Origin: Hyaloperonospora brassicae
Lineage: Eukaryota; Oomycota; Peronosporomycetes; Peronosporales; Peronosporaceae
NCBI GenBank assembly: GCA_947650285.1
Contig: CANTFL010000394.1
Location: 124,001-188,000, forward strand
Length of the DNA stretch: 64,000 nt
Reading direction: 5' to 3'
In this document: positions 5,424 to 45,962 of the stretch, piece by piece
Layout of the letters: each line of letters opens with the position of its first letter
How positions within the stretch are numbered: position 1 is the first letter of the stretch
Notes under the pieces: generated by a model
The model's input: only the letters and a program-made list of their open reading frames with translations
Told to the model about the DNA's origin: nothing
The model's database searches: none
Position numbers and translations under genes: made by a program

Positions 5424-5814
5424 TGTAACGGGGCAGCCCGTTACACGGAGTTGTCACTTTAAAGAAAGTGACAATAAAGAATATGAAGTTGAATATTCTA
5501 TGAACAATATCACCAAAGTGGTGATATTGAAGGGTAGACCAAAGAGTCTGTTCATTGGCTGATATCTTGATGATATCAACCCACCAATCGCCGCAAGACG
5601 CGCGCAATGAGTGGTGACGAGACGTCACCATACACTCAGTTATATTAGCATAATTAAGTTTAGTCAAAGAGAGAGACAGTAGTTAAAAGACTCAATTATA
5701 TAAATATAACAGTTCTGCTTTTACCTTACATACGCTTCCTCGCTTGCCTTGTGTACGTCTGTCGGGGCACCCAAAACCCTTGCGTTAAGTTGCGCAAGGG
5801 TGTGCCCCGTTACA
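5424..5814 (+). repeat. 5' LTR of gypsy copy A (391 bp)
   Basis: Starts TGTAACGGGGCA and ends TGCCCCGTTACA, a 12-bp terminal inverted repeat. Nearly identical to the LTRs of copy C. Contains perfect hairpins at 5,424-5,445, 5,451-5,474, 5,505-5,529 and 5,777-5,800. Confidence 0.9.
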
Positions 5815-5816
5815 CC

Positions 5817-5834
5817 TGGTAGCACTTTGTAGTC
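5817..5834 (+). other. Putative primer-binding site, copy A
   Basis: TGGTAGCACTTTGTAGTC begins two bases after the LTR. TGG is the complement of the tRNA CCA end. Copies B and C have the same site (TGGCAGCA... and TGGTAGCA...). The cognate tRNA was not identified; the first bases resemble initiator-Met sites. Confidence 0.55.
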
Positions 5835-5858
5835 CTTTCAACGACCACAACATCCAAC

Positions 5859-7031
5859 ATGAACATGTTGGATGATGAAAAGACCTTTCACGCCACGCGT
5901 GAAGGGTTTACCCATTTGAGCGACATCGAATGGAGTGCGGTAGAACGAATGAGTTCTACCGTAGGCGAGTTCGCCATTAGCGCCATGTTGGAGTCTCTAG
6001 ACAGAGACCAACAACATGCCGCTATATCCAAGTTCATTTAAAATGAACTTGTCGCCGAAAGGGAAAAAGTAGCCTTGCTTCACCAGCAAGGCTCTCAACA
6101 GGCCGAGCAGTTGAGAGAACTCGGTGCTCAACAGACAGAGCTGTTGAGACAGCAGCATTTCCATGCTGCTGTGGGCGGGACGGCGCATGCGCGTCGTTCC
6201 GAAGTCATGAAAGTTGACATCTCCAAGTACAGTGGAGTCCCGGAAGACTCCCTGTTACTATGGTTTGTCGAACTCGACAGAGCCTTAAGGGCTCGTCGCG
6301 TCGAAGATGAGCAAATGAAACTCACATTTGCTCAGACCCACTTAGAAGGGCGTGCCAAAACTTGGTCCCTGGGACTCGAGAGTAGCGACCCAAATTTGTT
6401 TAGGTTGCTAGATGACTTCAAGTCCCGGCTCAGACAAACGTTTGAGCCGCCACGGGCTGAGTTCAGGGCTCGTTCAGAGCTCCTGAAACTCAAGCAGGGT
6501 AAGCGTGATGTGCACGCTAACGCACAACATATACGACTCCTTGCGAGTAGTATAACTGCTAACCCAGTACATGAACACACGTTGATTACGGTGTTCATGC
6601 AAGGGCTCGCAGAAGGGCCCGTCAGGAGCCACCTGTTCCGCCTTAAGCTGAATACGCTGGAAGATGCGATATCAGCCGCGGAACAGGAAGACTTTAGCAT
6701 GAGACAGGCTCATGCTAGCTCAAACTCTTATCGTCCACCGAGACGACAAGAGATCGGAGGTCCAGAACCAATGGACCTCTGCTATGTTGAGAGCGAGAGA
6801 CCTCGCTCTTCGAACAACAAGCGATTGCACCTCTGCAATCGCTGTCAGAAGTTAGGGCACTACGCATACGAGTGTAGTGCTCCACGCCCAGTACCAAACA
6901 GTACTGAGCGAAATGGACGACCATTTGCCAGAAGGGCAATGGGCGTGGGTCCAGCGCTGTTGCGAAGCCGCAACAGCGAGACGGACCATCAAAAAATGGT
7001 CGGGGTCAGTAGGGGCGGAGCGCCCTACTGA
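5859..7031 (+). pseudogene. gag: gag, copy A (one internal stop)
   Basis: Structural protein of the gypsy particle. It starts at ATG 5,859 (MNMLDDEKTFH) and is open except for a TAA at 6,039-6,041. The same stop is present in copy C, whereas copy B has CAA there. The N-terminal third is glutamine/leucine-rich helix (QQGSQQAEQLRELGAQQTEL). A retrotransposon-gag domain follows (SLLLWFVELDRAL, FEPPRAEFRARSELLKLKQG), then a CX2CX4HX4C zinc knuckle at about 6,834-6,875 (CNRCQKLGHYAYEC). It ends in GGAPY and a TGA. The pol frame overlaps it, shifted by +1. The start codon sits in an 11-bp hairpin at 5,851-5,874. Two 1-nt differences relative to B and C near 6,930 and 6,991 cancel each other. Confidence 0.85.
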
Positions 7032-8097
7032 TCCAGCCACCTCAAGAGAATTTGCAAATCTCTTGACGAAAGTTGCTCCAGATACACAATCATTGTGTGT
7101 ATCTGCACCTGGTGATGACGTTTCGCTCATCACCTTGAAGTTGGAAGCGACAAATGATTTGTCGCTTCGTGCCCTAGTAGACTGTGGGGCGTCGAACAAC
7201 TTTGTTCGACGCCAGTCACTAGAGGGTCGTAGGCTCAAGTTCGTTGAGCGCGACATTCCCCTCACGAGGATGACGGTGCGCCTTGCAACAGGCGCATCGA
7301 TTACCGTTGCAAAACGTGTAGCGGGAGTCCACTTCACTTTAGAGGGCGAACAGTACGATGATGCCTTCATCGTACTGGATCTGGATGACAAATTTGATGT
7401 CATCCTGGGATTACCTTGGCTCAGAAAGTACGAGCCAAGGGTGAGCTGGCAGCATCGATCCGTGAAGATAACTGCGGCTTGTTCATCATATGGCCATCTG
7501 ATGAACGTCATGGAGCGTCCACAAGCGTGTGGATGTACTACGAGTGAGTGCGATGGCCTCACTTACGGTATGGTCGTTAGCACGACTGCACAAGATCACA
7601 GTGTAGTTGATCGCTACACTGTGGAGCAAGCTCCCGGCGGCTGTACAGAGGTGCAGGCGGCGTCGAAGGTCCACCACTCGAATAAGTCGAGTGGACCGGG
7701 ACATGGATGCATGCCTAGCGGGCAGCATCTTAGAGAAAAGAAACCGGTTGCCCACAAGCGGCAACACGGATATCCTAGGTCGACTGGAGAGTCGACTGTA
7801 GAGGATCGGTGCCTGACTGTGGTTGCACAGCCACAGTCAGAAGACGTCGAGGGAATAAGTCCCCACGTTGTTGAGGAAGGACTTCCTCAAGAGTCGCTTG
7901 CTGAGGGATCAGGCCCTCAGCAACCTGTGGAAGCAAGTTCCCAGGAAGAAACCGAGACGTTGAACGTATTGGTTAACGATGGATCAAGCGTAGGCGCTTA
8001 TACGCTTGATCTGATTGTGCCTCCGAAGTCAACTTCGGAGATAACTCAATTGCCAACGCTAGAACCGAAACGGTTCTTAAGTGATCTGAGCAGTTAA
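6877..8097 (+). pseudogene. pol: pol N-terminal part: retropepsin and linker, copy A
   Basis: This frame overlaps the end of gag and is open to a TAA at 8,095-8,097. The true pol reading probably begins by frameshift near the gag stop (SVGAERPTDPATS), as the region before that lies opposite gag. The aspartic protease motif is ALVDCGASNNFV with the catalytic Asp codon at 7,180-7,182. DCGA in place of the usual DTGA or DSGA is seen in all three copies. A long Ser/Thr/Glu-rich linker to RT follows. The TAA replaces a Glu codon (GAA in copy B), so the frame continues into the RT frame directly downstream. Very dense short hairpins occur here (see 7,081-7,213). Confidence 0.85.
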
Positions 8098-8100
8098 AAA

Positions 8101-9786
8101 TTGATGCAGATCTGTGTACTCGTCACGGAAGATGAGTATGTGGCCGATATTTGGTCGGCAACAGTATTTGCTGAGAACGAACGGGTTCTCAGCAGCTCAT
8201 CGATGGAAGAAAGTGTCCTCGATGAGAAGACTCGGATTGAGCGATACACGTCTCAATCCTGGAAATCGCTTCAGGCAAATCCTTTGTATAAGGATTTGAT
8301 CGAATTCAGCGATGTGTTCCCTGAATCTGTACCTTGCGAGTTGCCTAAGGACAAAGGCACTCGACACGAGATCGAGCTCAGACCGGGCTCGAAGTACTGT
8401 GTCATGAAGCAGTGGCCACTGCCTCGTGAACAAGTACTAGCGATCGACAAGTTCTTTGCCGATCGCTCAGCTGCGGGCCATTTGAGGGAATCAACATCCC
8501 CTCACAGCTCTCCGACCTTATGTGTGCGAAAGTCCACAGGAGGGTGGCGGATAGTGCACGCATTCAACAAGTCGAATGCTGCAACAGTACCGGCTCAGAC
8601 GCCGATACCGAGGAAGGACGTAATCAAAGATGGTATGTCAAAGGGTACCATCTTTTCGTCCATGGATCTGATGGATGGATTCTATCAGATCCTCATGCGT
8701 GAACGGGACATCCCGTTCACGGCAGTGAGTACCCCCAGCGGGATGCTGTGGGAGTGGCTAGTGATGCCACAGGGGCTGAGCAATGCCCCTGCAACATTCA
8801 ACAGATGTGTCACAAATCTATTGAGACCGGTGCGAGACTTCGCACCGAGTTGCTTCGACGATGTGTTCGTCCATAGCTGGGCTAAAGACGGAAAGACGGA
8901 CGTCGAAGTTCATAGAACTCACGTTCGTCAGGTTCTTCAACTTATGCGCAAGTATAAGTTGTACGCCAACCTCAAGAAGTGTATATTCGCGGCTAGCGAA
9001 ATACCACTTCTTGGGTGCGTTGTGGGTAAACACGGCGTGCGCCCTGATCCCGAAAAGATCAAGGCGATCACCGACTGGCTAGTGCCAGTCGATGTTAAGG
9101 GACTAAGGAAGTTCCTTGTGCTAGCGGCGTACTTGCACAAGTACTCGCGCAACTACGCCGAGATGACTGTTCATCTTTCTTGCTTGCTCAAGAAAAATGT
9201 CAAGTGGTCATGGAACGCTGAGTGCCAGCGTTCATTTGAAGGTATCAAGCAAAGCTTGGTGCAATCGCCGATACTAGCGTTTGCAGATCAGGACAGACCA
9301 TTTCATGTGGTCTGTGACGCAAGCGATTTCGCAATCGGCTGTGCGTTAATGCAGTTCGATGCAGATGGCGCGGAGCGCGTCATCTGTTATCAGTCGCGTC
9401 AGCTGCAAGCAGCTGAGCGTAATTACCCAGTGCATGACAAGGAACTCCTTGCCATGAAATACGCACTGGCTAAGTTTCGCGTCTATCTCTTGGGAGATAG
9501 ACCGATCATCGTTTATACGGACCATGCGTCATTACGCACGGCCGTAAACAGCCCACACCTCTCGCAAAGAATGGCGAGGTGGCTGTCATTCTTCGCGGAG
9601 TACAACTTCTCCGTGAAGTATAAGCCAGGACGACTCAATGTCGTCGCTGATGCGCTTTCTCGCCGACCCGATTTCGAGTCAGACGCGCAATCCAACAGTG
9701 AGGATGACCCACTGATTCAACACTTACAGTCAGTGTTCCATCGTCAAGTTTACTTGACGACGTGCGAAATCCTACGCAGAACATAA
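8101..9786 (+). pseudogene. pol: Reverse transcriptase and RNase H, copy A (open, part of broken pol)
   Basis: Same frame as the protease segment and open for 561 codons, the longest intact pol piece in the window. RT copies element RNA into DNA and RNase H removes the RNA. Visible RT motifs are KSTGGWRIVHAFNKSNA, FSSMDLMDGFYQILM, MPQGLSNAPATFNR and the catalytic FDD box at 8,851-8,862 (CFDDVFVHS; copies B and C have YFDD). RNase H is recognisable from FHVVCDASDFAIGCALMQ (first catalytic Asp at about 9,315), then ERNYPVHDKELLAMKYALAKF and VYTDHASLRT. The tail KYKPGRLNVVADALSRRPDF is the normal connection to integrase. After that the last 35 or so residues differ from B and C, marking the frameshift or chimeric junction near 9.68 kb. 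Confidence 0.9.
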
Positions 9787-9793
9787 GAACCTC

Positions 9794-11870
9794 TTGCTAT
9801 TGATGGATCATCTGGTGAAATTAACCCGTAAATCTTGGAAAGATTTATTGGCTTTGTACCGATCCTTGTCGGATCGGTATACAACACGCAACGAACTGCT
9901 GTACTATACAGCTGTTGCCGACGACACGTCTCGTGTCGTCGTAACCGCTCATCATGATTTGCGTTTACGCATCTTGTATGAGTGTCACGATGCCCCAACA
10001 GGTGGTCATCGTAGTCGAGAAAAGACTTACCTTACGGTAAGTCGTGACTTATACTGGACCCGCCAGTATCATTTTGTCCGCAAGTAAGTTCGTGCTTGCG
10101 AGGTTTATCAACGGGTAAATCCCAGTCCTTCATCCCGTGCACCCTTAAAGCCTCTACCTGTACCGAAAGAGTGCTAGTAGTCCGTTTCAATGGACTTCGT
10201 CTTCGGTTTCCCCGAAGATGCTCACGAGAATGATAGTATTCTTGTGTTCGTTGACCGGTTCAGCAAGATGGTCCATCTTGCTGCTGTCCCCGGGTCGATC
10301 ACGGCACAAAGCTGTGCTCGTGTCTTTATCGACACAATATATTGACTCCACGGGTTACCCCGTGAACTCGTGTTAAACTGTGACCCTCTGTTCACGGCAG
10401 ACTTTGGCAATCCGTGTTCCGTTCACTCGGAACACGGCTAAAAGTGTGGACATCTGATAATCCCACAATAGATGGTCAGACGGAACATATTAATCGTGTC
10501 CTCAAAGAGATCTTTTGTGGATACGTCCACTCGTTTTCAAGTTGGATCGAATTTCAACCCATGGTGGAATTCGTCATCAATAATTCGGTGCATGCTTCTA
10601 CACAACACACACCGTTCTTCTTGAATGGCTTACGCAATCCACGTCTGCCCACCCTTTAAAAGTATGACTCTTGGATAAAGGGGGGTACTCTCTCGAGCAA
10701 AAACCGTTCTGGCTTTTGCTCATCACGTCCGACGCAAACGTCGTCACGTATGATGCCGATGTCGATTAAGTCGACGTCGATGAAGAAGACCATCTCATTG
10801 ATAGCGACAACGCTATTATTGACTCGGATGATGATGACGATGCTGGTATATTCAGCATTGCCAACGATTATTCCAGCGAGGATGACGACATCCTCGCCGA
10901 TGAACAGAAAGAGGAAAGCACTCTTTCTGCAACTCGCACAAGGCGAACTGAACAAAACAATGCCGAGTCAACAGAAAGATTTCTGCTGGTTCGTGAAGCA
11001 GTGGTCCGTTTTGTACAGAATTCCATCGCTTACACGGTGAACCGTCAGAAACGGAACGCTGACAAGAATGGAAGGGCGAATATATATTCATTTGTCAAAT
11101 ATGACCTAGTCCTACTATCTACAGTAAACTTACCTGGACATGCACTCACTAATGTCGGCAGCAGTAAACTACTGCCGAAATACATTGGTTCCATTCGTGT
11201 ATTGCACCACAAAGGCAATGCATATACGATTGAGTTGCCTCGCAGAATGCGCACGCATCCTACTTTCATTTTGGTCGTCTCCGCCCGTACTGTCAGTACG
11301 AGCCCTCTTCCGACGATGAAGATAACCCCCACGTTCAATAACCTCCATCAGGATCTTACGTTCGCTCTCCAGACGATCATTCTGGATGCGTAATGAATAG
11401 ATATCTCCGTTCAGCCGATAGATCTCCATGCGTGCCGTCCCCAGCTCCTCAACGATGGAGCGGATATCGCGCTCGACATGCAGTTGCGCGACCGCGTACC
11501 CATTACGGTCCCTCGCACTCTCGGCTTCGCGATCCTTGCGATGCTTCCGTACAGTGTCGGTCAGACCGCAACGCTTGTCCCTCTCGTGCTCTAAATCCTC
11601 GCGCAATTTAACAATTGCACGATCCATCTTGTTCAGGTCGAGATGGTGAGCAAAACGACCTGGAGGAGGTTTTTCCTCATCCTACACCTCCTTTGATTCA
11701 CTCCCACGGTGGTCAACGCTTACTGGTCGAGCGTATCTTGAACCACCGTGACGATTCAGGATCAAGGACGAGATACCTTTTCCAGTGGCGAGGGTATTAA
11801 CCCTCTTGAAACAGCTGGGAGCGGGGCTCCCAGCTGATGTTGGATGTGCCCGGTCTCGTCGAGAACTGCG
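9794..11870 (+). pseudogene. pol: Integrase and chromodomain, copy A (broken)
   Basis: Integrates the cDNA; the chromodomain would steer insertion to marked chromatin. Zinc-binding and core segments are present but split by several stops and shifts. 9,794-10,087 reads ALYRSLSDRYTTRNELLYYT and YECHDAPTGGHRSREKTYL. The core starts near 10,188 (SMDFVFGFPEDA), and 10,414-10,659 holds DGQTEHINRVLKEIF and NNSVHASTQHTPFFLNG. An acidic spacer follows at 10.74-10.93 kb. The C-terminal domain lies at 11,001-11,393 (NLPGHALTNVGSSKLLPKYIG). The chromodomain is at about 11,715-11,870 ([26 protein letters not shown], then stops). Its 3' part lies opposite the antisense gene. Confidence 0.8.
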
Positions 11871-13048
11871 ACGAGGCACATCCGACGGTGGAGGGACATC
11901 GTCGTACGAACGCCCGCCGCGTTCGTAAAGGGGTTGTAGATTTTCAATCCCTTGACGCATCTCGGACGAGATGCGCGCCATCCAGTAGGGTTGATTAGGG
12001 AGGTACTCCCCACTAGGGGTGCGAACTTAGTTGTCAACACAACTCAAACAATTTTCTCTTCACAAGAAGCAATGTAAACCTGCCTCTCGAGACAATCAGT
12101 GCAATTTGTACCGAGAACAGGTATGAGACTTCAGCTCAAACTTGTTGCGAGTAACTTCGAGTTTGTCCAGCCAAACCTTGCAGCCAACATTCAAAATGTC
12201 GCCGATGAACGAATTCCACGCCTGCACCAAAGAGAGCTCGTCTCTCTTTCGGCTGCCGCGGTACCATCGATGTATAAAGAAGACATCGATGTAGAAGTCA
12301 TGCTCAGTGCGATAATGGTTCGCACTGGGGTCAAGATCATGGATCCTTGGCGAGTCAAAGATTAGGATTCGACAACTCCCAGTGGTAAACCCATACCACC
12401 CTTTCAGCTTGCTCACGGAAGGCATCCATGGCTTGTTTTCAGGAGCAGATCGTAACGCCTCACGATCCTGCTACTCTTGCGTGGTGCCAACGTAAGCACT
12501 GGCACCACGATCGCCGCAATACCTCGTATTACTGCGTCTATGGCTGCGGTGACTCCGCGAAGAGTCATCGGCATCGTCATGAAGGCTTACGTCCTCATGT
12601 TGCGCACTCGCCTCGTATGAACACGAGCGGGATCGGTTCGATCCCGGTGACAAGTTCCCGAAATCGTCGGATGAACCGAACATCTCTACCGCAATTCAGG
12701 ATCGAGACTGCCGCCAGGTGCAGCAGTCTTTATTTCCACAACCGTACGGTCGGGCTTTGCGGACGACTTGGAGTCGAACGGGGGATTCGACTCACTCGAA
12801 TAGATTACCTCTAAATCGGGTTCGACGTCCATGGGACTTCCACCCGCGGCCAAAGCTGCGGGTGAAGAAGCTGCACGTAAATGACCACGTGCGACTGCAA
12901 CTATGGGTGAAGCAGGTTGCTTATTAGCAGCAGCAGGCGCATTATCGCCTGCTGGCGAGTATTGAGTGGCATGCCCTCCGGCTAAAGGGATGCGTGCAGC
13001 CGCTTCGTTCGCAGCCTTGCTCGCGGAGCGCATGTGCCGACTCGTCAT
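11169..13048 (-). pseudogene. Antisense accessory gene of the gypsy family, copy A (decayed)
   Basis: This gene runs from near the 3' LTR back toward pol, on the strand opposite gag-pol. It starts at ATG 13,048-13,046 (MTSRHMRSASKAANEAAARI). It is homologous along its length to the antisense frames of copies B and C: PDLEVIYSSES against PDVEVIYSGES in C, HDFYIDVFFIHRWYRGSRKR against EDFYLDVFLRHRWYNSNQKR, and a C-terminal coiled coil (MDRAIVKLREDLEHERDKR and IYSLRIQNDRLESERKILME). At least four shifts or stops break it. The 3' part overlaps the chromodomain and integrase tail of pol on the other strand. Function unknown. The charged coiled-coil tail and low-complexity N-terminus suggest a structural or nucleic-acid-associated role, which is inference. 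Confidence 0.7.
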
Positions 13049-13164
13049 GCGCTTTAAAGTCGAAATGAGAAGGGAAAGACCAACAAGTGCTCCCCGGCTT
13101 CAGAGCGACACGACGGTGGTCTCTCTGTCACCAATGAATCAATCACTCACTATAGAAACTAATG

Positions 13165-13180
13165 GTTGAGGGAGGGGTGA
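13165..13180 (+). other. Polypurine tract, copy A
   Basis: GAGGGAGGGGTGA directly precedes the 3' LTR, the usual primer for plus-strand DNA synthesis. Copy C has the equivalent G-run and copy B a shorter one. Confidence 0.75.
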
Positions 13181-13645
13181 TATAACGGGGTGAGCCCGTT
13201 ACAGAAAAATTGGTGCAAAGTACCAATTTTGGATATCATCTATTTTAATAATATTCAATCAACGTCGCTCGAGAAAAGCGATGTCGTCGGAATATCACCT
13301 CTAAGGGTAATATCCGTGCAGGGGTCCACTTCTTGGATGATGTACCGTGTACATCAACCAATTTAACCACCAATCGCTGCTGGACGCGCGCAATGGGTGG
13401 TGGACAGAAGACCCATATAGGAGACAGTAGTTTGATATATTTAGATTAAGACGAAAGATGATTTAGCAAGAAACATAAATATAATATATAACAGTTCTAC
13501 TTTTTCCTCAAGACAGAGCTTTCGGGTTCTGTATTGTCTTGGTCGCGCTTCCTCACGCCACGTGTACGTGACGTCGGGCGTACGCACCCTTGTTATTAAT
13601 ACAAGGCCTTGCTCAGTCATCTGAGCAAGAGCGTGCCCCGTTACA
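13181..13645 (+). repeat. 3' LTR of copy A, different subfamily (465 bp)
   Basis: Starts TATAACGGGG (TG changed to TA) and ends TGCCCCGTTACA. It shares only islands with the 5' LTR (the CCACCAATCGCTGCT...ACGCGCGCAATG block and the ends). Perfect hairpins lie at 13,206-13,230 (arm AAAATTGGT) and 13,608-13,629 (arm CTTGCTCAG). Confidence 0.85.
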
Positions 13646-22103: not shown

Positions 22104-22516
22104 TGCAACGAAATAGCCCGTTACATAAAAGTTACCATTGTGCGAAATGGCAATAAAGAATATTACGTTGAATTTTATTTTAACAATATCACGAAGCACA
22201 GTAATATTGTTGGGATGGCCGAAGGCTCTACTCATTGGTTGATATTGCGACTATATCAACCCACCAATCGCTGCTAGACGCGCGCAATGGGTGGTGAGTA
22301 GTCGTCGTAATACATGGTTTGGTATTAATATTGTTGAGACCAGGCAAGAAGTTAGAGACCTATAAGACTTACTATATTAATACAGTTTTACTTGTCCTCT
22401 GTACAAAACTAAGTTGTTTAGCGCCTAGTCTTCCTCTGAGCGCGTACGGTGTACGTACGTTAACATGGAACTTACTACGCACTGCTGTCAGTGCGTAGTC
22501 CCAGTGCCCCGTTACA
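22104..22516 (+). repeat. 5' LTR of copy B
   Basis: Starts TGCAACG and ends GCCCCGTTACA. A perfect 11-bp hairpin lies at 22,474-22,499 (arm ACTACGCACTG), with another at about 22,241-22,263 (GTTGATAT/ATATCAAC). The putative primer-binding site TGGCAGCACTTTGTAG begins at 22,519. Confidence 0.88.
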
Positions 22517-22566
22517 CCTGGCAGCACTTTGTAGTCCGTTTAGCGATCACAATTGTCTCATCCAAC

Positions 22567-23600
22567 ATTAACACGTTGGTTGATAAAGAAAGCTTACACA
22601 CCACGCGTGAAGACTTTGGTCATTTGGGTGACACCAAATGGAGTGCAGTACAACAAATGATTTCTCCCGTTAGCGAAACCTGAATAAGCGCCATGTTGGA
22701 GTCTCTTGACCAAGATTAAAAACATGCTGCTATAGCCAAGTTCACTCAAATTGAACTTGTCACCGAAAGAGAGGAAGTAGCCTTGCCTTAACCAGTCAGG
22801 CTCTCTACAGGCCGAGAGGTTGAGAAACCTCGGTGCTCAATAGACAGAGCTGTCGAGACAGCAGCAATACAATGCTGCTGCGAGCGGGACGACACACACA
22901 CGTCGTCCCGAAACCTTGAAGGTTGATGTCTCCAAGTACAGAGGAGTCGAGGAAGCTTCCCTGTTGTTATGGTCCGTCGAACGAGACAGAGCGATAAAGG
23001 CACGTCGTATTGACGATGAGCAAATGAAACTCACATTTGCTCAAATTCACTTGGTATGACGTGCCAAGACTTGGGCCTTGGGGCTCGAGATGAGCGACCC
23101 ATTTTCATTTGAGTCGCTGGAAGACCTTGAGATTCGGCTCAACAAGATGTTTGAACCGCCACGGGCTGAGTTCAGGGCTCGATCAGAGCTTCTGAAACTC
23201 AAGCAGGGTAAGTGTGATGTGAGCGCTTATGCTCAGCACATATGACTCCTTGCGAGTAATATAACTGCTAACCCAGTACATGAACACACTTTTATTACTG
23301 TGTTCATGCAAGGGCTCGCAGATGGGCCCGTCAGAAACCACCTGTTCCGCTTAGAGTTGAATACGCTTGAACAAGCAATCTCAGCTGCAGAACAGGAGGA
23401 CTTTAGCATGAGACAGGATCTTGCTAGCCCGAGCTTTTATCACCCATACGACGACAGGAGACTGGAGGTCCAGAACCAATGGACCTCTGTTACGTTGAGA
23501 GCGAGGTACCTCGCTCTTCGTTTAACAGGCGATTGCAGAAGTACAATCGCTTTTAGAATCTAGATTACTACGCCTATGACTGTAGTGCCCCACGCCCGGA
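22567..23600 (+). pseudogene. gag: gag, copy B (decayed)
   Basis: Aligns with gag of A and C but the start ATG is now ATT, and stops and shifts are scattered through it. Where A and C have the TAA (FI*NEL), B reads FTQIEL with a CAA codon, so the stop is not ancestral to the family. The clearest stretch is 23,300-23,420 (FMQGLADGPVRNHLFRLELN). The zinc knuckle near 23.55 kb is destroyed. Confidence 0.75.
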
Positions 23601-23752
23601 TCCAAATACGCACTGAGTGAAGCGACCGACTGTTTGCCAGAAAGGGCAACGGACGCAGGTCCGACACTGTTGCGAAATCGCAACAGCAAAACGGACCATC
23701 AAAAATGGCCGGGGTCAGTATGGGCGGAGCACCCTACTGATACAGCAACCTT

Positions 23753-26340
23753 ATGGGAATTTGCAAATGTCTTGACAAACGTTTCTCCCGACACACATAT
23801 ACTGAATGTCTCTGCTCTGGTGATGAGGTGTCCTTCATCACCTCGACGTTAGAAGTGACAAAGGACTTGTCACTTCGTGCTTTATTTGACTGTGGGGCGT
23901 CGAACAATTTTGTTCGTCGTCAGTCACTAGAGGGTCGTAGGCTAAAGTTTGTTGAGCGCGACATCTCCCTAACGAGGATGACGGTGCGTCTAGCCACGGG
24001 CGCATCGATAGACGTTGATAAATGTGTAGTAGGCATTCGCCACATGTTAGAGAGAAAACAGTGCGATGATGACTTCATCGTACTGGATCTGGGTGACAAA
24101 TTCGCAGTCATCCTGGGATTACCTTGGATCAGACGCTACGTGCCAAGCGTGAGCTGGCAGCATCGATACATGAAGACGCCTGCCGCTTGTTCGTCGGATG
24201 GACATCTGATGAACGTTTTGGAGCATCCACAAGCGTGTAAATGTACTGCTAGTGAGTGCGATGACCTCATTTGCGGTACGGCAGTTGATACGACTGCACA
24301 AGACTTCATTGTAGCTGATCACTAAATATTAGAGCAATTCCCCGGCGGCTGTACAGAAGTACGGGCAGCGCCGAGGGTCCAATACTCGAATAAGTCAAGT
24401 GTTCCGGGACATGGATGCATGCCTAGTTTGGCAACATCTAAGGTTGAGCAAACCGATTTCCCAGAAATGGCAACACGGGTATCCTAAACCGGCTGGAAAG
24501 TTGACCGTATATGACCTGGCTCTGGTAGTGCAACCACAGTCAGAAGACGACGGGGAAGTAAGTCCCCGCGTACTTGAGGAAGAAGTTTCTCAAGCGGTAA
24601 TTGCAGAGAGAACAAGCTATCATCAACCTGAGTGGACAATCCGCAGCAGCCTGTAGACCAAGTTCCCAGTAATAAACCGATACATTGAACGTCTTACTCG
24701 ATGACGGATCAAGCGCAGGCGCTGATACGCTTTATCGTATTGCACTATCGAATTTAAGATCGGAGATCACTTAATTGCCAACGTTAGAGCCGAAACGGTT
24801 CTTACGTGATCTGCGCAGTGAAAAATTGAAGCAGATCTGTGTAATCGTCGCCGATGAAGAGTACGTCACCGATATTTGGTCGGCAAAAGTATTTGGTGAG
24901 AACAAACGGGTTCTTAGCAGTTCATCGATAGACAAAATTGCCCTCGATTAGAACGACTCGGATTGAACGATACACGTCTCAAATCTGGGAGTCTCTTCAG
25001 GCAACTCCTTTGTATAAGGATTTGATCGAAGTCAAGGATGTATTCCCTGAATCCGTCCATTACGAGTTGCCAAATGATAAAGACACTCGACACGAGATCG
25101 AGCTCAAACCGGACTCAAATTACTGTTTCGTGAAGTAGTGGTCACTGCCTCGTGAACAAGTACTAGTAATCGACAAGCTCTTTGCCTATTGCTTGGCTGC
25201 GGGACATATGAGGGAATCAACTTCCCCTCACAGGTCGCCGACATTCTGTGTGCGAAGGGCGACAGGAGGGTGGCGGATTGTGCACGCTTTCAACAAGTTA
25301 AATGCTGCAACAATACCGGCGTCTGAGCCGATACCGAGAAAGGACGTTATCATAGATCGTATGTCAAAGAGTACCATCTTCTCGTCCATGGATATGATGG
25401 ATGGATTCGATCAAATACTCATGCGTGAACGGGACATACCGTACACAGATGTGAGTACCCCCCAGCGGTATGCTGTGGGAGTGTCTAGTGATACCACAGG
25501 GGCTGAGTAACGGCCCTGTAGCGCTCAACCGATGTGTCAAAAATCTGTTGAGACCGGTGCGTGATTTCGCACCGAGTTATTTTGACGACGTGTTCGTCTA
25601 TAGCCCGGCTATGGACCGGAAGACAGACGTTGAAGTTTACAGAACTGACGTTCGTCAGGTTCTTCAACTCATGCGCAACCATAAGTTGTACGTCAACCTC
25701 AAGAAGTTTATATTCGCGGCTAGCGAAATACCACTTCTTGGGTGCATCGTGGGTAAACACGGTGTAATCCCTGGTCCCGAAAAGATCAAGGCGATCACCG
25801 ACTGGCCAGTCCCAGTCGATGTCAAGGGACTAAGGAAGTTCCTTGGTCTTGTGGCGTACTTGCACAAGTACTCGCGCAACTACGCCGAGATGACTGTTCA
25901 TCTTTCTTGCTTGCTCAAGAAAAATGTCAAGTGGTCATGGAACGCTGACTGCCATCGTTCCTTTGAAAGTATCAAGCAGAGCTTGATGCAATCGCCGATA
26001 CTCGAGATTGCAGATCAGGACAGACCTTTTCATGTGGTCTGTGACGCCAGCGATTTTGCTATCGGCTGTACGTTGATGCAGTATATCACAGACAGCGCAG
26101 AGCGCGTCGTCTGTTCTCGATCGCGTCAGCTGCAACCAGCTGAACGCAAGTACCCAGTGTATGACAAGGACACTCCTTGCCATGAAGTACACACTGGCTA
26201 AGTTCCGCGTCTATCTCCTCGGAGATAGACCGTTCATTGTCTATATGGACCATGCGTCACTGCGCACGGCCGTAAACAGTCCTCACCTCTCGCAAAGAAT
26301 GGCGAGGTGACTGTCTTTCTTCGCGGAGTACAACTTCTCC
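23753..26340 (+). pseudogene. pol: pol: retropepsin, RT and RNase H, copy B
   Basis: The retropepsin motif ALFDCGASNNFV lies at about 23,878-23,915, and its frame is open to 24,325. RT motifs are TGGWRIVHAFNKLNA near 25.27 kb, SSMDMMDGFDQILM near 25.40 kb, a shift near 25.47 kb, and YFDDVFVYS at about 25,579. RNase H reads FHVVCDASDFAIGCTLMQ near 26.05 kb, then a shift at about 26.17 kb. A TGA in RMAR*LSFF near 26.31 kb is shared with copy C, while copy A has Trp. No functional enzyme can be made. Confidence 0.8.
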
Positions 26341-28600
26341 GTGAAGTACAAACCAGGACGAGTGAATGTCGTCGCTGATGCGTTATCACGTCAGCCCGAT
26401 TTCAAGCCGACTACACCAGTCAATAGTGAGTCCTTGCCCACTAATGCGGAGCTGTCAGTCAGCGTGCCGTCGTCGCCTTTACTCGACGACGTGCGGAAGG
26501 CATACGCAGGAAATACGAATCTACTCCGTATGATGGGTCATCTTTCAAACCCATCCCGGAAATTCTTGTCGGATTTTCCGGCTCTATACCGCTCCTCTTT
26601 GGGTCGGTACGCGATTCGCAATGGCCTGCTGTAATACACAGAAGTTGCTGACGACACCTCTCGTGTCGTCGTTTCCGATCATGATGATTTGCGTTTGCGC
26701 ATCATGTTCGAGTGTCACGATGAGCCGTCAGGCGGGCATCGTGGTAGGGAGAAGACTTACCTCACAGTAAGTCGTGACTTTTACTGGCCCCGCCAGTATC
26801 AGTTTGTCCGCAAGTACATTCGTTCTTGCGAGGTCTTCCAACGAGTGAAGCCTTTTCCTTCATCCCACGCACCGTTACAACCTCTGCCGGTACCGGCAGA
26901 ATGCTTGGCGTCCGCTTCCATGGACTTCGTCTTCGGGTTTCTTAAAGACGCTCACAAGAATAATGGTATTTTTGTGTTTGTCGATAGTTTCAGCAAGATG
27001 GGGCATCATGCTGCGGTCCCCGAGTCGATCACGGCTCGAGGCTGTGCGCGTGTCTTCATCGACACGATATTTCGACTCCACGGATTATCCCGTGAACTCG
27101 TATCCGATCGAGACACTCGATTCACGGCGGAGTTTTGGCACTCGGTGTTCCGCACTTTGGGAACACGGTTGAAGATGTCAACATCTGACCATCCCGAAAC
27201 GGATTGTTAGACAGAACGTGCGCATTGCGTCCTCGAAGAAATACTTCGAGAATACGTCCTTTCGTTCTCGAGTTGGAGTGAGTTTTTGCTGATGGTTGAA
27301 TTTGCCATCAACAACTCCGTGCATGCGTCAACGACGTATACACCGTTCTACGTGAATGGCTATCGCCACCCGCGTAACCCCGCCCTGATACAGAGTGACT
27401 CTGGATTAAGGGGGGAGGGAATCGCTCGAGCAAATACCGTTTTGGCTCTTGCTCATCACGTATCACCGCACACGCCGATACGTTCGATGTCGATGTCAAT
27501 AATATCGACATCGACGAAGTTGATCTTAGCAGTAGCAATGACGCTGCTGCTACTTCAGACAATGATGACAATGCTGGAATATTCAGCATCGTCAACGATT
27601 ATTCCAGCGAGAAAGTGGACAACCTCGTTGAAGAAGAGAAGATTTTCTTAGCTGTGCGCACGAAGCTCACTAAAAGGCACAACAACGAGTCAGCAGAGAA
27701 CTTCCTGCTGACTCGATAGGCGGTAGTCCGTTTCGTTCAGGATTCCATCGCAAATGAGGTGGACCGCCAGAAACGGAACGCAGACAAGAATGAAATAGCA
27801 AATGTTCTTTCATGTAAGGTTAGCGACCTATTACTACTGTCTACAGTAAACTTACCAGGACATACAGTCACTAGTGTCGGCAGTAGTAAACTACTGCCGA
27901 AATACATTGGTCCCTTTCGTGTATTGCACCACAAAGGCAATGCATACACGATTGAGTTGCCTCGTAGGAGGCGCACAATCCTACTTTTTATTTTGGTCGT
28001 CTCCGCCCATACTATGGGTACGAGGCCTCTTTAGAGAGCGGAGATGACCAGCACATTCAGGAATCTTCAACAGATTCTTGTGATCACGGACCAAACACTC
28101 AATTTGGTCCTTCAGCAACGCAGTCTCGCGACGAGCCGCCTCTAGCCCGTCGCGAAAATGGCGCCTCTCGCGTTCGTCCTCAAGCTGAGCGAACGCGAAA
28201 TCCGATAGGTCTCTCTCCCGATCGGCACGGAGACGTCGCACGGTCGACAAAAAGTCGTGTCGACGGTCGTGTTCGTGGTCCTCGTCCTCCCTCAACTCGG
28301 TCAGCACGCGTTCATAGCGGCCGCCAATTTCCTGTAGGCCAGGCGGCTGAGCCGGAACTGGTCTTCCTACCTCCACCAGAGTCACTGGTGGACTCTCACG
28401 GTGGTCGACGCTTTCACGTGGGCGTATTATGAGCCGCCGCGTGAAGAACGGGGAGCGGACTAGTTACCTTGTTCACTCGCGGAAATATCCACCATCATAT
28501 GATAGCTGGGAGCCTCGGTCCCAGCTGATGGATAATGTTAAGGGTATCGTCCGACAGTATGACGAGACGCATCTGATGGGTTATCGGGCTTATCAATCAG
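26341..28600 (+). pseudogene. pol: Integrase and chromodomain, copy B
   Basis: 26,341-26,634 gives KYKPGRVNVVADALSRQPDF and the linker. 26,689-27,210 holds the zinc-binding and core domains (GGHRGREKTYLTVSRDFYWP, ASMDFVFGF, LVSDRDTRF). The C-terminal domain is at 27,759-28,010, and the chromodomain at about 28,440-28,570 (RTSYLVHSRKYPPSYDSWEP). Several stops and shifts separate these parts. Confidence 0.78.
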
Positions 28601-29568
28601 CACGCGCTTCCAGCGCCTGTGGACGGATTGCAAATTTGCAATCCGTCCCGCATCTCAGCCAAAATGTGAGCCTTCCCCTAGGGCGAACTTAGAGAAAGGA
28701 CTTTTATTTGAGCACGCTACGAGGTGTTCATACAAATCGCACGAGGGTCACTCCATGTGAGGCAAGAAATGCCTGTCCTACGTGATAAGCGATGCAGCCA
28801 TTAACTTTGCATTGGTTGGCCTTCGATTCTTAAACTTAAGGCGTACGACCTCAAGTTTTTAAAGCAACGCTTTACGTCCAAAACTCGTGACGTTTGGACG
28901 AACGCGTTCCACGCTGCCAAAAGCAAGTCCTGATCACGCTTTTAGTTACTATTGTACCATCGATATTTAAGAAAAGCATCGAGGTAAAATTCTTCTTCAG
29001 CGCGATACTTGCTCGCGCTGGAGGACAAGCCACGCATCTTGCTCGCATCGAATAATGAAGATCGATGGTGCTGGCTTGTCTCGTGGGACAATACATTGAT
29101 GATCCATTCGGGCAAGCGCCATATCTTATGCTGACTACGCTTCAACTTGGTACCGTCGTCGATACCACGGTTCTTAGAGTGACGGCGACTCGCGCCATCT
29201 CCAACACGCTCGTTTGAAGACGCAAAAGTTGACTGTGGTGATGATCAACCATAATTACCACCGTTATTATCATCACTTCCGAACAGACTATGACGCAGGT
29301 CGCGAGTCCGTTCGTTCGGCAGAACTTATGATTAAAAAAGCACCGTGGGTGATCGGAATGCCTCTGAACCCTTTATCGAGTCAGACGTGTCTGAATCGAC
29401 AGATTAGACCACCTCACTTTGTAGTTATCGAGAGCACGTGGTGTGCTACCACGTATGCCTGTGTCAACAGGTACCGCGGGAAGAGACGAGTAGTAGACGA
29501 AGAGTCGTCTGACACAGAGGCTGACGCAGCAATAGGCTGTGTCTTTTTGAGCCACCCCGCATAGACAT
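27981..29568 (-). pseudogene. Antisense accessory gene, copy B (decayed)
   Basis: Opposite strand to gag-pol, starting at an ATG at 29,568-29,566 with MSMRGGS, matching MSMRGDS in copy C. 28,942-29,145 retains WRLPEWIINVLSHETSQHH and YRAEEEFYLDAFLKYRWYNSN-like sequence, close to copy C over the same stretch. The coiled-coil C-terminus is open at 27,981-28,385 (DFAFAQLEDERERRHFRDGL, ETALLKDQIECL). The N-terminal third is badly broken. Amino-acid similarity holds even though the DNA has drifted. Confidence 0.68.
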
Positions 29569-29695
29569 GTTAACTATGCGCGGTAAGGTCAGGTATAATT
29601 GGTTCTGACCAAACGAGTGCTCTCCGTCCCAAGGTGTCCAACATGTGGCCACCAAATTTCGATAGACACACGGTGACTATCAGCTAGGGGGTTGA

Positions 29696-30108
29696 TCTAA
29701 CAGGGTAGCCCGTTACATGAAAGTTACCATTGTGTGAAATGGCAATAAAGAATATTACGTTGAATTTTATTTTTACAATATCACGAAGCACAGTAATATT
29801 GTTGGGATGGCCGAAGGGTCTACTCATTGGTTGATATTGCGACTATATCAACCCACCAATCGCTGCTAGACGCGCGCAATGGGTGGTGAGTAGTCGTCGT
29901 AATACATGGTTTGGTATTAATATTGAAAAGACCAGGCGAGAAGTAAGAGACCTATAAGACTTACTATATTAATACAGTTTTACTTGTCCTCTGTACAAAA
30001 CTAAGTTGTTTAGCGCCTAGTCTTCCTCTGAGCGCGTACGGTGTACGCACGGTAACATGGAACTTACTACGCACTGACAGCAGTGCATAGTCCCAGTGAT
30101 CCTTTACA
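29696..30108 (+). repeat. 3' LTR of copy B
   Basis: 413 bp like the 5' LTR. It begins TCTAACAGGG (TG lost) after a short G-run (AGGGGGTTGA, 29,686-29,695) and ends TCCTTTACA. Confidence 0.85.
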
Positions 30109-35955: not shown

Positions 35956-36530
35956 CATATATTACCGGGCTGATACATATGCGTCGATCCAAAACTTGAA
36001 GGTCAACATCTTTAGGCACGGGTACTCGAGAAAGACTTCCTTTTAGGATGATCCGTCGATATTTACGTCGACATGAAGGGATTGTCGCGTTATGACGAGG
36101 ACCTGCAGGTTGCATTCGGCCATTCAAATCTGGCAGAAATGGCCATAACTAAGATTTCGGAGCTCAAGATTTGCTCCATACAAAAACTGTAACATCAGAC
36201 GTCTTTATGAGTCAACGAATACAAAACATTTGACTGTCACAAGCTCAGTTCAGGGATCGATCAGAGATATAGAAAAAACTTAAGTATCATAAGCGTATTT
36301 TTAACGCTTACGCCCTGCGAATGTGGCATATTTCGAGTTATGTGATTGCCAATGTGGTCCACGAACACACGTTGGTTTTGTTGTTTATGTAATTTTTGAA
36401 AGGTGTCCCCGTAGATACAGATGTGTTCCTCTTGAAACTAGATACAGTGAAATAAGCGACATTATGGCAAAACAGGAGGACTTCAGCCCAAAACAAGCTC
36501 ATATTGAATCTGAAACGGGGTGAATATGTA
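35956..36530 (+). pseudogene. gag: gag fragment of the first gypsy family (old)
   Basis: Base-level similarity to gag of A-C survives in pieces: the AAGGT(C/T)(A/G)ACATCT..AAG.AC.. block near 36.0 kb, GCTCAGTTCAGGGATCGATC near 36.25 kb, GAACACACGTTGG near 36.36 kb, and AAACAGGAGGACTTCAGC near 36.47 kb. No frame remains. Confidence 0.55.
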
Positions 36531-36589
36531 ATATAGCATAACTATAAATAAGAAATGATTATATAAAATTAATTTTGATGCACTTCAAG

Positions 36590-36770
36590 ACATATTGGTA
36601 TGCTTGTGGTGACAATAGGGTGTACTCATTATTCGATACCGGCCGTGATATCAACTCACTGGTTGCTGCTCGGCACGCGCGATGAGTGGTGATCAGACTT
36701 TACGATACATATTTTTACATATTGAAATATATTATAAGGATAATTTATGAAGCTAATTTACGACTTCTGC
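36590..36770 (+). repeat. LTR-like fragment of the first gypsy family
   Basis: Contains ATATCAACTCACTGGTTGCT and ACGCGCGATGAGTGGTGA, matching the conserved central block of the family LTR. Both ends are eroded. Confidence 0.5.
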
Positions 36771-36889
36771 ATTTTTCAGTATCACCAGCGATTTTGTACA
36801 GCCAGGTTAAGGACGCCCTCGCTTATGGATGTGTTTTTCTTTGTAGAAAGAACAAAGCATACCATCTGGGGAATATGCCGTCGCGAAAA

Positions 36890-37640
36890 GCAGAGGACCA
36901 ATTCGTTAAATACTACACTGATGACGCGGTGGATTGCTAAATCGGACTCGAAAAAATGTGAGTGCAAACGTTTTTTTACGTAGACTTTGTCATAATGTTA
37001 CTGTAAATCCATTTGAGCATGCAGTGGCTAACGCGGAGAGTAGTTATGTACTAATTTAATACATCGAACCATTTCTGTGGCATTTCGCTTTATTAGATGT
37101 ATACGGGATTGAGCCTACACCAACGATACGTATGCATCCTAAGTTTGACGCGGGGACCTTTTGCCCGTACTGTCAGTAAGACGCCTCTTCCGGCGGTGGA
37201 CATAGCCATTTTGCTAATTAATATCCATTATAGTCATCCGTTAACGCTATTAGATCCTAGCCTGGTATCTTAGGGAAGCGATTGATGTACGAGCTGGTAG
37301 ATCTCGTGTGTAGAGCAACCGTCATTTTGTCTTCAAGAAAAACGTGTAACTGTAGAAATCATACTCAAACAATTTTTTGCGATGCCCCTGCGCAGTCCTG
37401 GCCAGGGTCAGGAGCCCGTACCGACCATGATTTAGATCGTCGATTTACTCGAGCTCTAAGCTATTCAATTTTTGAAAATTTATCTTAATCACCTGATAAA
37501 TCAGACCACGTCTTCCTACCAGCATCATGTATGCTAATGGATTTGCGTCAAGATTGCTAGTGAATTGTTTGTTGAGATACCGCGGTGTGAAGGTACGTCG
37601 GACGAGTTACCTCTTTCTGATGGCGCGGTCATACGCTTTT
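36890..37640 (+). pseudogene. Integrase C-terminus and chromodomain fragment of the first family (old)
   Basis: Similarity to pol of A-C resumes here. Near 36.93 kb is GCGGTGGATTGC..AAT (compare the VDRQKRNADKN region), near 37.01 kb the ACTGTAAATC region, near 37.11 kb ATACGGGATTGAGCCTAC (TIELP) and CGTACTGTCAGTA. Near 37.58 kb GTCGGACGAGTTACCTC (RTSYL of the chromodomain) follows. Most of pol between gag and this point is missing. Sequence from 37.65 to 38.0 kb shows nothing. Confidence 0.5.
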
Positions 37641-37996: not shown

Positions 37997-38001
37997 GTCA
38001 A
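37997..38001. repeat. Target site duplication of copy C, left (GTCAA)
   Basis: GTCAA directly before the LTR; repeated exactly at 45,958-45,962. Confidence 0.9.
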
Positions 38002-38393
38002 TGTAACGGGGCACACCCTTGCGTAACTTAACGCAAGGGATTTGGGTGCCCCGACGGACGTACACGTGGCGAGCGAGGAAGCGTAGGTAGGGTAAAAGTA
38101 GAACTGGTATATTAATAGAATTAAGTCTTTAAACTACTGTCTCTTCGTTTGACTTAATTCAATCATACTAATATAACTGCATGTATGGTGACGTCTCGTC
38201 ACCACTCATTGCGCGCGTCTTGCGGCGATTGGTGGGTTGATATCATCACGATATAAACCAATGAACAGACCCTTTGGTCGACCCTTCAATATCACCACTT
38301 TGGTGATATTGTTTAAAGAAAAATCCATCTTTATATTCTTTATTGTCACTTTCCTTAAAGTGACAATTTCATGTAACGGGCTGCCCCGTTACA
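38002..38393 (-). repeat. 3' LTR of copy C (392 bp)
   Basis: TGTAACGGGGCA...CCCCGTTACA on the plus strand. Matches the 5' LTR of copy C and of copy A. Confidence 0.93.
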
Positions 38394-38410
38394 TCACCCC
38401 CCCCCTCAAC
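38394..38410 (-). other. Polypurine tract, copy C
   Basis: On the minus strand GTTGAGGGGGGGGGGTGA lies directly before the 3' LTR. Confidence 0.8.
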
Positions 38411-38526
38411 TGATAGTCACCGTGTGACTATCGAAAATATGGAGGCCACCCGTTGGCCACCATTGGGATAGGGAGCACTTGTTGGGTCCGTTTCATTCAC
38501 TTTCCGCTTGACCTCGCATAGTTAAC

Positions 38527-40116
38527 ATGTCTATGCGAGGTGACTCAAGACCCACACAGCCTGGTGCTGTGCAAGCCTCTGCGGCAGACGCTTCGTCGTC
38601 TGCAGCAACAGGTGCTGCAGGTGCACGCGGAACCTCACCGCGTGCGCACGATGACCCTGATGTAGAGGTCATCTACTCTGGCGAGTCAGACGTGTCTGAC
38701 TCGGGCAATGGTCCCGAGGCGTCTCGCTCACCGGCGACGCCTCAGTATTCGCCAATGCCACTGCCGAACGAGCGGACTCGTTAGTTGCATCACAGTCGGT
38801 TCGGCAGTGATGATGATGATCAGGGTGGTGAGGAATTCTATTCCTCACCACCACCGGCTCGTGCGTCTTCGCACGACTGTGATGACGATGGCGCGAGCCG
38901 TCGTCAATCTGGGAGCCGTGGTACCGACAAGGGTACCACTGTGAAGCGTGATGAGTTGAAGCCGTGGCGTTTGCCCGAACAGCTCATCAATAGCCTGTCT
39001 CACGAGATAGGCCAACACCGTTGAATACCCTTATTCGATGCAACCGAGCTTCACGGCTTGAGTTCCAGCGCGAAGAACTTTCGCGCTGAAGAAGATTTTT
39101 ATCTCGATGTCTTTCTTAGACATCGATGGTACAACAGCAACCAAAAGCGTGACAAAACATCGCTTTTGGCTGCGTGGAACGCATTCGTCCAAAACGTGAA
39201 GAATTTTGGACGAGAAGGGTGGCTCAAGAAACTTGAGGCGACACGCCTCAGGTTCGAACGGCGAACGCCAACCGGTGCTAGGTACCGGTTGCATTGTTTA
39301 TCTAGTGAGGCAGGCATTCCTTGCCTCACATGGGGAGACCCTTGTGCGAGTTGTGTTGACAACTCGCAGCGTGCACATAGGGATGTGTACTCCCTAAATT
39401 CGCCCTGGGGAAGGGCACACATCTCGGCTGAGATGCGTGACGCGATTGCAAACTTGCAATCCGTCTACAAGCGCCTAGGGCGCGTGTTTACCGATGGGCC
39501 ACAGGACTCATCGGATGGGTCTCGTCATACTGGCGGACGAGACCTTCAACATCCATCAACAGCTGATAGCGGGGCTCCCAGCTGTTCCAAGAGGGTGGAT
39601 ACCCCCGCCACTGGACGAGGTAGCTCGTCCTTGATCCTGAATCGTCACGGTGATTCAAGATACGCTCCACTAGAAAGCGTTGATCACCGTGCGCATCCAC
39701 CAAAGGATGTGGTGGAGGAGGAAAGACCTCCTCCAGATGATTCGGTTCACCATCTCGACCCTTACGAGATGGATCGCGCAATCGATGAATTGCGCGATGA
39801 CTTGAAGCACGAGTGCGACCGGCGCTACGCTTTGACTGATACCGTGCGGAAGAACCGCAAGGATCACGAGGCTGATTGGGCGAGGGATCGCGCCGATTAT
39901 GCCACGGCGCAGCTTCAGGTCGAGCGGGATGTCTGCTCCCTATTCGGCGAGCTGGCGACAGCTCGCGGGGAGATATCTCGGTTGAGTACCGAGGTATCAT
40001 ATCTGCGCGACCAGACGGATCGTCTGGAGCGCGAACGCAAGAACTTGATGGATGTTCTTGAACGTGGAGGCTATCTTCATCGGAAGAAGAAGGCTCGTAC
40101 TGACAGTACGACCTAA
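38527..40116 (+). pseudogene. Antisense accessory gene of the gypsy family, copy C (two in-frame stops)
   Basis: One frame of 529 codons plus stop on the strand opposite gag-pol, broken only by TAG at 38,782-38,784 and TGA at 39,022-39,024. The ATG at 38,527 gives MSMRGDSRPTQPGAVQASA, an Ala/Ser-rich N-terminus with an acidic patch (DDPDVEVIYSGESDVSDSG). Next is a conserved central block (KPWRLPEQLINSLSHEIGQH; RAEEDFYLDVFLRHRWYNSN; LLAAWNAFVQNVKNFGREGW). A linker follows, then a C-terminal coiled coil (EMDRAIDELRDDLKHECDRR; RLSTEVSYLRDQTDRLERER) and a basic tail (HRKKKARTD). All parts recur in copies A and B. I know no family for it. It starts about 130 bp inside the 3' LTR, so antisense transcription from that LTR could express it (inference). 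Its last 629 nt overlap the chromodomain frame of pol. Confidence 0.8.
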
Positions 40117-41769: not shown

Positions 41770-41799
41770 GGATAAACTGTACTCCGCGAAGAAAGACAG

Positions 41800-45957: not shown

Positions 45958-45962
45958 GTCAA

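Follow-up and report, generated by a model that had tools for sequence, protein, structure and literature searches.

Why are the genes of a retrotransposon threaded with small perfect hairpins, is the excess real, and what maintains it? These questions are raised by a 64,000-nt stretch of the Hyaloperonospora brassicae genome (contig CANTFL010000394.1, positions 124,001 to 188,000; hereafter the window), which carries three copies, A, B and C, of one Ty3/gypsy family, here called F1. An initial annotation of this DNA described the genes of the element as a near-continuous chain of short perfect inverted repeats, and proposed as causes either selection on RNA or single-stranded DNA structure or a template-switching process that makes palindromes. 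Judged by gene content, the elements are ordinary Ty3/gypsy retrotransposons. Pfam matches comprise gag, protease, reverse transcriptase (RT)-RNaseH, integrase and, in C, a chromodomain, the whole domain set being found when A and C are taken together, with the zinc knuckle scoring below the cut-off. Copy C has long terminal repeats (LTRs) bounded by TG..CA, a polypurine tract (GAGGGGGGGGG) ahead of the 3' LTR and a 5-bp target-site duplication, TTGAC, at 45958-45962 and 37997-38001.

The hairpin excess in the gypsy elements is confirmed. All ten inverted repeats named in the initial annotation are exact at their coordinates, and a scan in 1-kb bins for stems of at least 7 bp with loops of 0-12 nt finds 5-19 per bin in the nine bins of 5-14 kb and 9-17 per bin in the eight bins around copy C (38-46 kb). 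The low density ascribed to the host genes is also borne out, with 0-1 per bin in seven bins (15-22 kb), and the same figure is obtained in each of seven bins at 30-37 kb. Counting perfect stems that reach 8 bp or more and enclose loops of 2-12 nt gives 69 in 7577 nt of A, 27 in 7995 nt of B and 87 in 7956 nt of C; local mononucleotide shuffles (20 each) give a mean of 0.85-1.1 and a maximum of 2-4, in agreement with the earlier estimate of about one 8-bp stem per 7-8 kb by chance. When synonymous codons are shuffled with protein and codon usage fixed (100 shuffles each), 0.17-0.49 hairpins are left in open reading frames (ORFs) of A and C that hold 5-20; the five ORFs of C hold 13, 11, 5, 20 and 5. 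Copia ORFs (0, 0, 2, 0) and host frames (0, 0, 0, 0) lack such density, as had been claimed. The weak point of the observation is B, whose three ORFs have 2, 0 and 1 hairpins versus 0.13, 0.38 and 0.03 in codon shuffles, so that it keeps only a residual signal. Chance or base composition as the cause is ruled out by the mononucleotide and codon shuffles.

The hairpins are not restricted to genes, because the LTRs of C (10-13 per kb) and the region 3' of its last ORF (15.5 per kb) are dense as well. An RT search of the host genome (100.56 Mb in 898 contigs) yielded at least 78 matches at 93-100% identity, from 7431 candidates. Stem counts in twenty-eight young F1 copies (L011-L038), whose mean divergence from each other is 1.1-1.2%, are 59-63 per 4.6 kb (about 13 per kb); the corresponding part of A has 9.6 per kb. 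The description of a near-continuous chain holds locally but not overall, since the share of sequence taken up by non-overlapping hairpins (stem of at least 6 bp, loop up to 13 nt) is 37% in A, 41% in C and 45% in a young copy. F1 stems are mostly of 8-11 bp, with loops of 2-10 nt; their length peaks at 8-10 bp and declines beyond 11. The excess is seen at loops of 0-13 nt and is gone at 16-19 nt, the pairing being mainly local. Stems of 8 bp or more are again in excess, though less so, with loops of 20-49 nt, where C has 13, B 13, A 10 and the young copy 5, and the per-loop chance figure gives about 2.7, 2.7, 2.6 and 1.6, respectively.

The initial annotation dealt with a single family. The array it reported there is real, and similar arrays occur in relatives within the genome, in one case with hairpins of a clearly different size. 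Belonging to the same oomycete Ty3 clade, these additional families, F2, F3 and F4, came from stretches hand-picked around RT matches (the loci as a whole were chosen from 150 such matches listed for the genome and from the 78 above); they are 54-59% identical to F1 over longer stretches and 66-69% over the RT core. F2 (L040, L050, L051, L058, L060) has 5-8 stems per kb, of 8 bp in 31 of 52 cases, with a loop mode of 4 nt, and F3 (L042, L046, L052-L055, L061) has 2.5-5.3 stems per kb, mostly of 8-9 bp. The two are thus alike in hairpin size; their counts include LTR hairpins present at both ends of one copy, and F3 counts that draw on L055 include the 4 of its 16 hairpins that lie in its first 0.4 kb or so, which is F1 sequence. 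F4 (L041, L056, L057, L067-L069) is almost devoid of 8-bp stems. Its stems are of 5 bp (163 versus 54 expected) and 6 bp (63 versus 13), with loops centred on 3 nt (62 stems of 5-6 bp versus 4.0 expected; counting every 5-bp stem with a 3-nt loop, 84 versus 6.8-7.4). The 5-bp stem with a 3-nt loop is found 33 and 19 times in F1 (7.8 and 4.5 expected), 27 times in F2 and 14 times in F3 (7.8 expected in each), and seven control sets range from 1 versus 5.1 (host genes) to 12 versus 7.8 and 20 versus 14.7. Codon shuffles bear out the F4 excess: four copies, the first two of which are 99% identical to each other, have 12, 11, 7 and 5 hairpins versus 0.95, 0.75, 0.8 and 0.6 in the shuffles.

Nine retroelement loci outside the clade (L001, L003, L004, L005, L043-L045, L047, L048) show no local excess, although L043 folds slightly below its shuffles (z -2.3/-2.4). 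The controls for 5-bp stems were four of the eight loci L001-L008, which have a slight excess of such stems (150 versus 119.5), and those for the local excess were the same four together with L043, L044, L045, L047 and L048. At the apparent start of the LTR, right behind the purine tract, reading by eye shows TGTAACGGG-GCAG-CCCGTTACA in A, a hairpin of this geometry but for a single G-T mismatch in F2, and in F4 a stem of 7 bp that encloses 3 nt. Closing pairs are preferentially G-C in F2 (24:6) and F3 (16:6) and C-G in F4 (36:9). F2 stems (L040, L050, L051) start with GTCG and end with CGAC in 10 of 70 cases versus 0.5 expected; for F3 the sole outer motif listed is GCGC (4 of 49 versus 0.3 expected).

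Hairpin positions were compared between families through the protein alignment. F2 shares with F1 the centres of 1 of 20 hairpins in L040 and 2 of 21 in L058 (1.6 expected in both), F3 those of 3 of 15 in L042 and 2 of 13 in L046 (1.1 expected in both), and F4 0 of 3 at this stem length; F2 and F3 have 5 hairpins in common. Inside F1, the older relative L039 has 43 hairpins that can be mapped, and the young copy has 34 of them too (3.4 expected). It follows that over long times the tendency is inherited and the individual hairpins are not. In an RT tree built from 82 of 128 rows, F4, F2/F3 and F1 fall in three clades with their branching order unresolved. Since each clade also includes proteins of other oomycetes, the hairpin property may be old and widespread among them. 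Protein relatives are listed from Peronospora, Phytophthora, Pythium, Globisporangium and Aphanomyces, the named proteins among the best matches being from Peronospora, Phytophthora and other oomycetes; with the patterns used, the viral and genome contig collections returned no related loci. The earlier statement that the stems lie in conserved coding sequence holds in part, as residues under stems are less conserved (0.54-0.57) than those in spacers (0.64).

The agent behind the hairpins seems blind to strand. RNA folding against shuffles, a check that the initial annotation had proposed, places the energy far below codon shuffles in F1, F2 and F4, with sense/antisense z values of -30.3/-29.0 in F1, -5.3/-6.7 in F2, -2.2/-3.6 in F3 and -7.5/-7.9 in F4. 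Interior single mismatches of G-U and A-C type, counted in sliding windows so that long stems count more than once, are 41 versus 37 in young F1, 44 versus 51 in C, 5 versus 14 in F2, 12 versus 8 in F3 and 5 versus 7 in F4, where they do not exceed shuffles. Because structure is equal on the two strands and stems contain no surplus of G-U over A-C, stability of the sense RNA is unlikely to be the main target.

To follow how the hairpins evolve, changes were polarised by means of copies C, A, A2, B and B2. Of the changes at 110 sites of the active lineage (three classes: fixed on the young branch, shared among young copies, and fixed on the young+C branch), 16 complete a hairpin versus 4.4 under a matched null, and 11 break one versus 32.7. 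Changes private to C or to A2, or on the A/A2 branch, are near the null. The gains are single-base changes and not clusters, because the 16 are spread over 15 hairpins, the sole double gain being completed by changes on both arms. Between young+C and B+B2 there are 7 double compensatory changes, all transitions, where about 1 is expected from stem divergence; by eye, four of these pairs sit in one hairpin (alignment column 4620) and hence are not independent. F2 and F3 differ by 6 compensatory doubles that are transitions and 1 that is a transversion, and point changes outside stems stand at 93:79 for transitions and transversions. All 6 comparisons within F4 (three pairs, each taken in both directions) show lower divergence in stems than in spacers, a gap that arises partly from choosing stems intact in one copy.

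Selection for Watson-Crick hairpins, acting on single-stranded DNA or on both RNA strands, is tentatively our best single reading of these data, narrowly ahead of the writing of palindromes that is discussed below. Throughout the sequence of the clade, in LTRs, genes and non-coding parts alike, selection would favour folding into numerous small hairpins, with a size that is not the same in all families. Because the agent seems blind to strand, the hairpins would act in single-stranded DNA, such as the cDNA that the RT makes, or in RNA of either strand; stem and loop size might be set by a partner specific to the family, for example the element's own RT or nucleocapsid. Support comes from the excess over codon shuffles, the different geometry of F4 and the independent positions in F1 versus F2/F3, as well as from the equality of the strands, the lack of a G-U surplus in stems, and the excess of gains with a deficit of losses in the active lineage. 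The double compensatory changes and the GC-rich stems of F2 (66% versus 54%), F3 (60% versus 53%) and F4 (61% versus 51%) are in its favour too. It is also tempting to speculate that the geometry is a code of self-recognition, in which the RT or nucleocapsid of each family prefers its own stem and loop size; this is rather unlikely, but if true, related families in one cell would not copy each other.

Several observations weigh against selection for strand-blind hairpins. About 100 selected hairpins per element is a heavy demand, and the benefit of a hairpin to the element is putative. The contrast between active and inactive lineages is not clean, because singletons (30 breaks versus 48.6 under the null) and doubletons (2 versus 7.3) also break fewer hairpins, and changes private to A make more (14 versus 4.9) and break fewer (25 versus 38.4). 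F1 stems are neither richer in GC nor more stable than random stems of equal geometry, and therefore selection would have to count base pairs, not energy. The folding z of F3 hardly goes beyond that of the host cytochrome c1 gene (-2.2/-1.4). Some tolerance of wobble on the sense strand is hinted at by changes between groups (G-U 41 versus A-C 25), by those between F2 and F3 (16:10 and 11:6) and by losses through singletons (12:7); the active lineage has 7:12. Finally, polymorphisms common to at least 3 young F1 copies fall on the 3' arm 20 times and on the 5' arm 3 times (p 0.0003; 20 and 2 in stems of at least 8 bp), which counts against selection because selection alone predicts no arm bias. 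Singletons are divided 23 to 18 between the 3' and 5' arms and fixed differences show no arm bias, and the bias of the shared polymorphisms is either a directional copying effect or chance over about 15 tests.

Such a copying effect is what one would expect if palindromes were written and not selected, a possible though doubtful explanation, in which the RT would repeatedly jump from its template to the strand it is synthesising, over a short distance characteristic of the enzyme, perfect inverted repeats would be made and mended, and purifying selection on the protein would do no more than filter them. Stem and loop lengths are family-specific, as if set by an enzyme, and the hairpins occur in coding, LTR and non-coding parts alike. 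The symmetry of the strands, the pairing without wobble and the lack of a stability preference in F1 are equally in line with it, and in F4 pairing is near all-or-none, interior one-mismatch forms being at chance. Template switching has been published as a source of perfect hairpins, in the form of mutations that arise in RNA genes when DNA is replicated (Monttinen and Loytynoja 2022, PMC8794818). The hairpins described there have in common with ours the perfect, close reverse-complement arms, compensatory changes and no need of wobble; ours differ from them in number (about 70-90 per element in A and C), in having a preferred geometry, and in that no signature of one overwritten arm was found. 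Palindrome writing predicts changes clustered on one arm at creation; the recent gains are single-base changes, but the shared polymorphisms are biased to the 3' arm. It also predicts an overwritten arm, which the protein does not show overall: the mean difference in conservation between arms, given versus its null, is 0.208 versus 0.205 in F1 (32 hairpins), 0.165 versus 0.217 in F2 (19), 0.212 versus 0.216 in F3 (12) and 0.327 versus 0.286, s.d. 0.039, in F4 (39). The dominance of transitions among compensatory doubles and the even arms of the fixed differences argue against it too. In the 12 hairpins of F3, conservation averages 0.651 in 5' arms and 0.519 in 3' arms, and F1 5' arms are 56% purine with no matching arm difference in conservation.

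A quite improbable alternative is escape from small RNAs: small RNAs made from either strand of such an element would be self-complementary and bind their targets poorly, so hairpin-dense copies would be less silenced. Strand blindness fits this idea, as small RNAs arise from both strands. The mean hairpin span is 23 nt in F1, 21 in F2 and 22 in F3, and Phytophthora small RNAs are of 21 and 25 nt, the latter coming mainly from transposable elements (PMC3804510). Stem and loop length are negatively correlated in F2 (p 0.002) and F3 (p 0.02), as if the span were fixed, and also in copy A (p 0.03), with no clear correlation in C or the young copy. However, F4 hairpins span about 13 nt, hairpins take up no more than 37-45% of F1, and the other Ty3 and copia elements tested in the same genome have no such excess. 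An inverted repeat that serves as a small-RNA precursor has a stem long enough for Dicer, over about 20 bp, whereas the longest perfect local stems here are of 13-14 bp.

Ordered structure of the sense RNA over the whole genome, as in some RNA viruses, where it could serve packaging, stability or translation, is likewise quite unlikely. The folding energies of F1, F2 and F4, the stem covariation by transitions only and the G-U surplus between groups speak for it. In such genome-scale ordered RNA structure (GORS), the structure belongs to the RNA strand, with the sense more structured than the antisense and G-U pairs in stems. The elements resemble GORS in an energy far below scrambled controls over long stretches (F3 being as the host gene), but differ from it: their sense and antisense strands are structured alike, the pairing is mainly local (loops of 0-13 nt) and hairpin size depends on the family. 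For G-U the picture is mixed, as it is no commoner than A-C inside stems and is the rarer of the two in the active lineage, but is the commoner among changes between groups. Packaging-signal hairpins have a conserved, shared loop sequence; no loop motif is dominant in F1 or F4, the commonest F4 triloop making up 6 of 65. Stems are not GC-rich in F1. The causes first proposed are supported in part: selection on sense RNA alone is disfavoured by the equal strands, the missing G-U surplus in stems and the ordinary stability of F1 stems, though the 41:25 ratio between groups speaks for it, and strand-blind selection and palindrome writing by the RT are both tenable. An energy threshold for stems is weakly supported: stem length correlates negatively with GC in C (p 0.008) and F4 (p 0.005), with no correlation in the young copy, F2 or F3. 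An artefact of assembly or analysis, or an effect of base composition, can be dismissed given the many copies on different contigs, the long ORFs, the composition and codon controls, the clean results in nearby genes and in other elements, and the distinct geometry of F4; nothing was found in its favour.

Oomycete Ty3/gypsy (Metaviridae) chromoviruses have, like the elements described here, gag, protease, RT-RNaseH, integrase, a chromodomain, LTRs and a 5-bp target duplication; the difference lies in the arrays of small perfect hairpins. The initial annotation knew of no description of such an element, and neither did we find one in the literature searched, which left subscription papers mostly outside. 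In yeast, short 5' palindromes of the Ty3 genomic RNA are proposed to hold the RNA dimer (PMC11381356); this is the same kind of retroelement, with a mapped fold and functional motifs, and the abstract mentions no uniform hairpin array. Here, much of a mobile element that codes for proteins also follows a second rule, one of geometry, and in at least one sister family the size is different. If this rule is selected, a retroelement would carry, perhaps in its cDNA, a structural code that is blind to strand; if it is written by the RT, a mutational process would be able to reshape a whole element into palindromes. Because four families are present in one genome and protein relatives in many sequenced oomycetes, the question is directly testable.

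Features of the window and their hairpins (counts versus codon shuffles where two figures are given).
Feature	Position	Strand	Remarks
Copy A, F1, Ty3/gypsy	5424-13507	+	right end decayed; 69 perfect stems of at least 8 bp (loop 2-12) in 5424-13000
5' LTR of A	5424-5815	+	first hairpin TGTAACGGG-GCAG-CCCGTTACA at 5424-5445; 5 stems of at least 8 bp (loop 0-13)
gag ORF of A, Retrotrans_gag	6075-7031	+	10 hairpins versus 0.20
Protease ORF of A	6877-8097	+	18 hairpins versus 0.36; contains the cluster 7081-7440 of the initial annotation
RT-RNaseH ORF of A	8101-9786	+	14 hairpins versus 0.26
Sample hairpin	5851-5874	+	11 bp, 2-nt loop
Sample hairpin	7144-7168	+	A: GAAGCGACAAA-TGA-TTTGTCGCTTC; B: GAAGTGACAA-AGGAC-TTGTCACTTC; double compensatory change
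Sample hairpin	7188-7213	+	12 bp, 2-nt loop
Copy B of F1, older relative	22114-30108	+	79-82% to A and C; 27 stems of at least 8 bp
LTRs of B	22114-22516 and 29706-30108	+	95.3% identical
Copy C of F1, both LTRs	38002-45957	-	87 stems of at least 8 bp
5' LTR of C	45566-45957	-	5 stems of at least 8 bp
3' LTR of C	38002-38393	-	89.0% identical to 5' LTR over 392 columns; 5 stems of at least 8 bp
ORF of C, SH3_Tf2-1 domain and chromodomain	39488-40720	-	13 hairpins versus 0.49
Integrase ORF of C, H2C2 zinc-binding domain and rve core	40858-41769	-	11 hairpins versus 0.34
Protease-containing ORF of C	42828-44318	-	20 hairpins versus 0.47

Long open frames run antisense to the gypsy genes at 6852-7562 (-; 236 aa) and 39058-40116 (+; 352 aa), perhaps as a by-product of heavy self-complementarity. 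Further F1 LTR copies, 70-83% alike, lie at 48140-48391 and 55545-55848; the latter overlaps an ORF with a copia RT match (55149-55703), which suggests nested insertions. A near relative of A, 98% identical in DNA over the RT ORF, lies about 60 kb off on the same contig (72057-73739 of G000:C202). The host reading frames of the window encode an RNA polymerase subunit (two frames), cytochrome c1 and a mitochondrial carrier, the last of which matches proteins of Peronospora effusa and Phytophthora rubi at 94% identity. GC is about 37-46% in 36001-37000, 46001-49000 and 58001-64000, versus roughly 50% over most other parts of the window.

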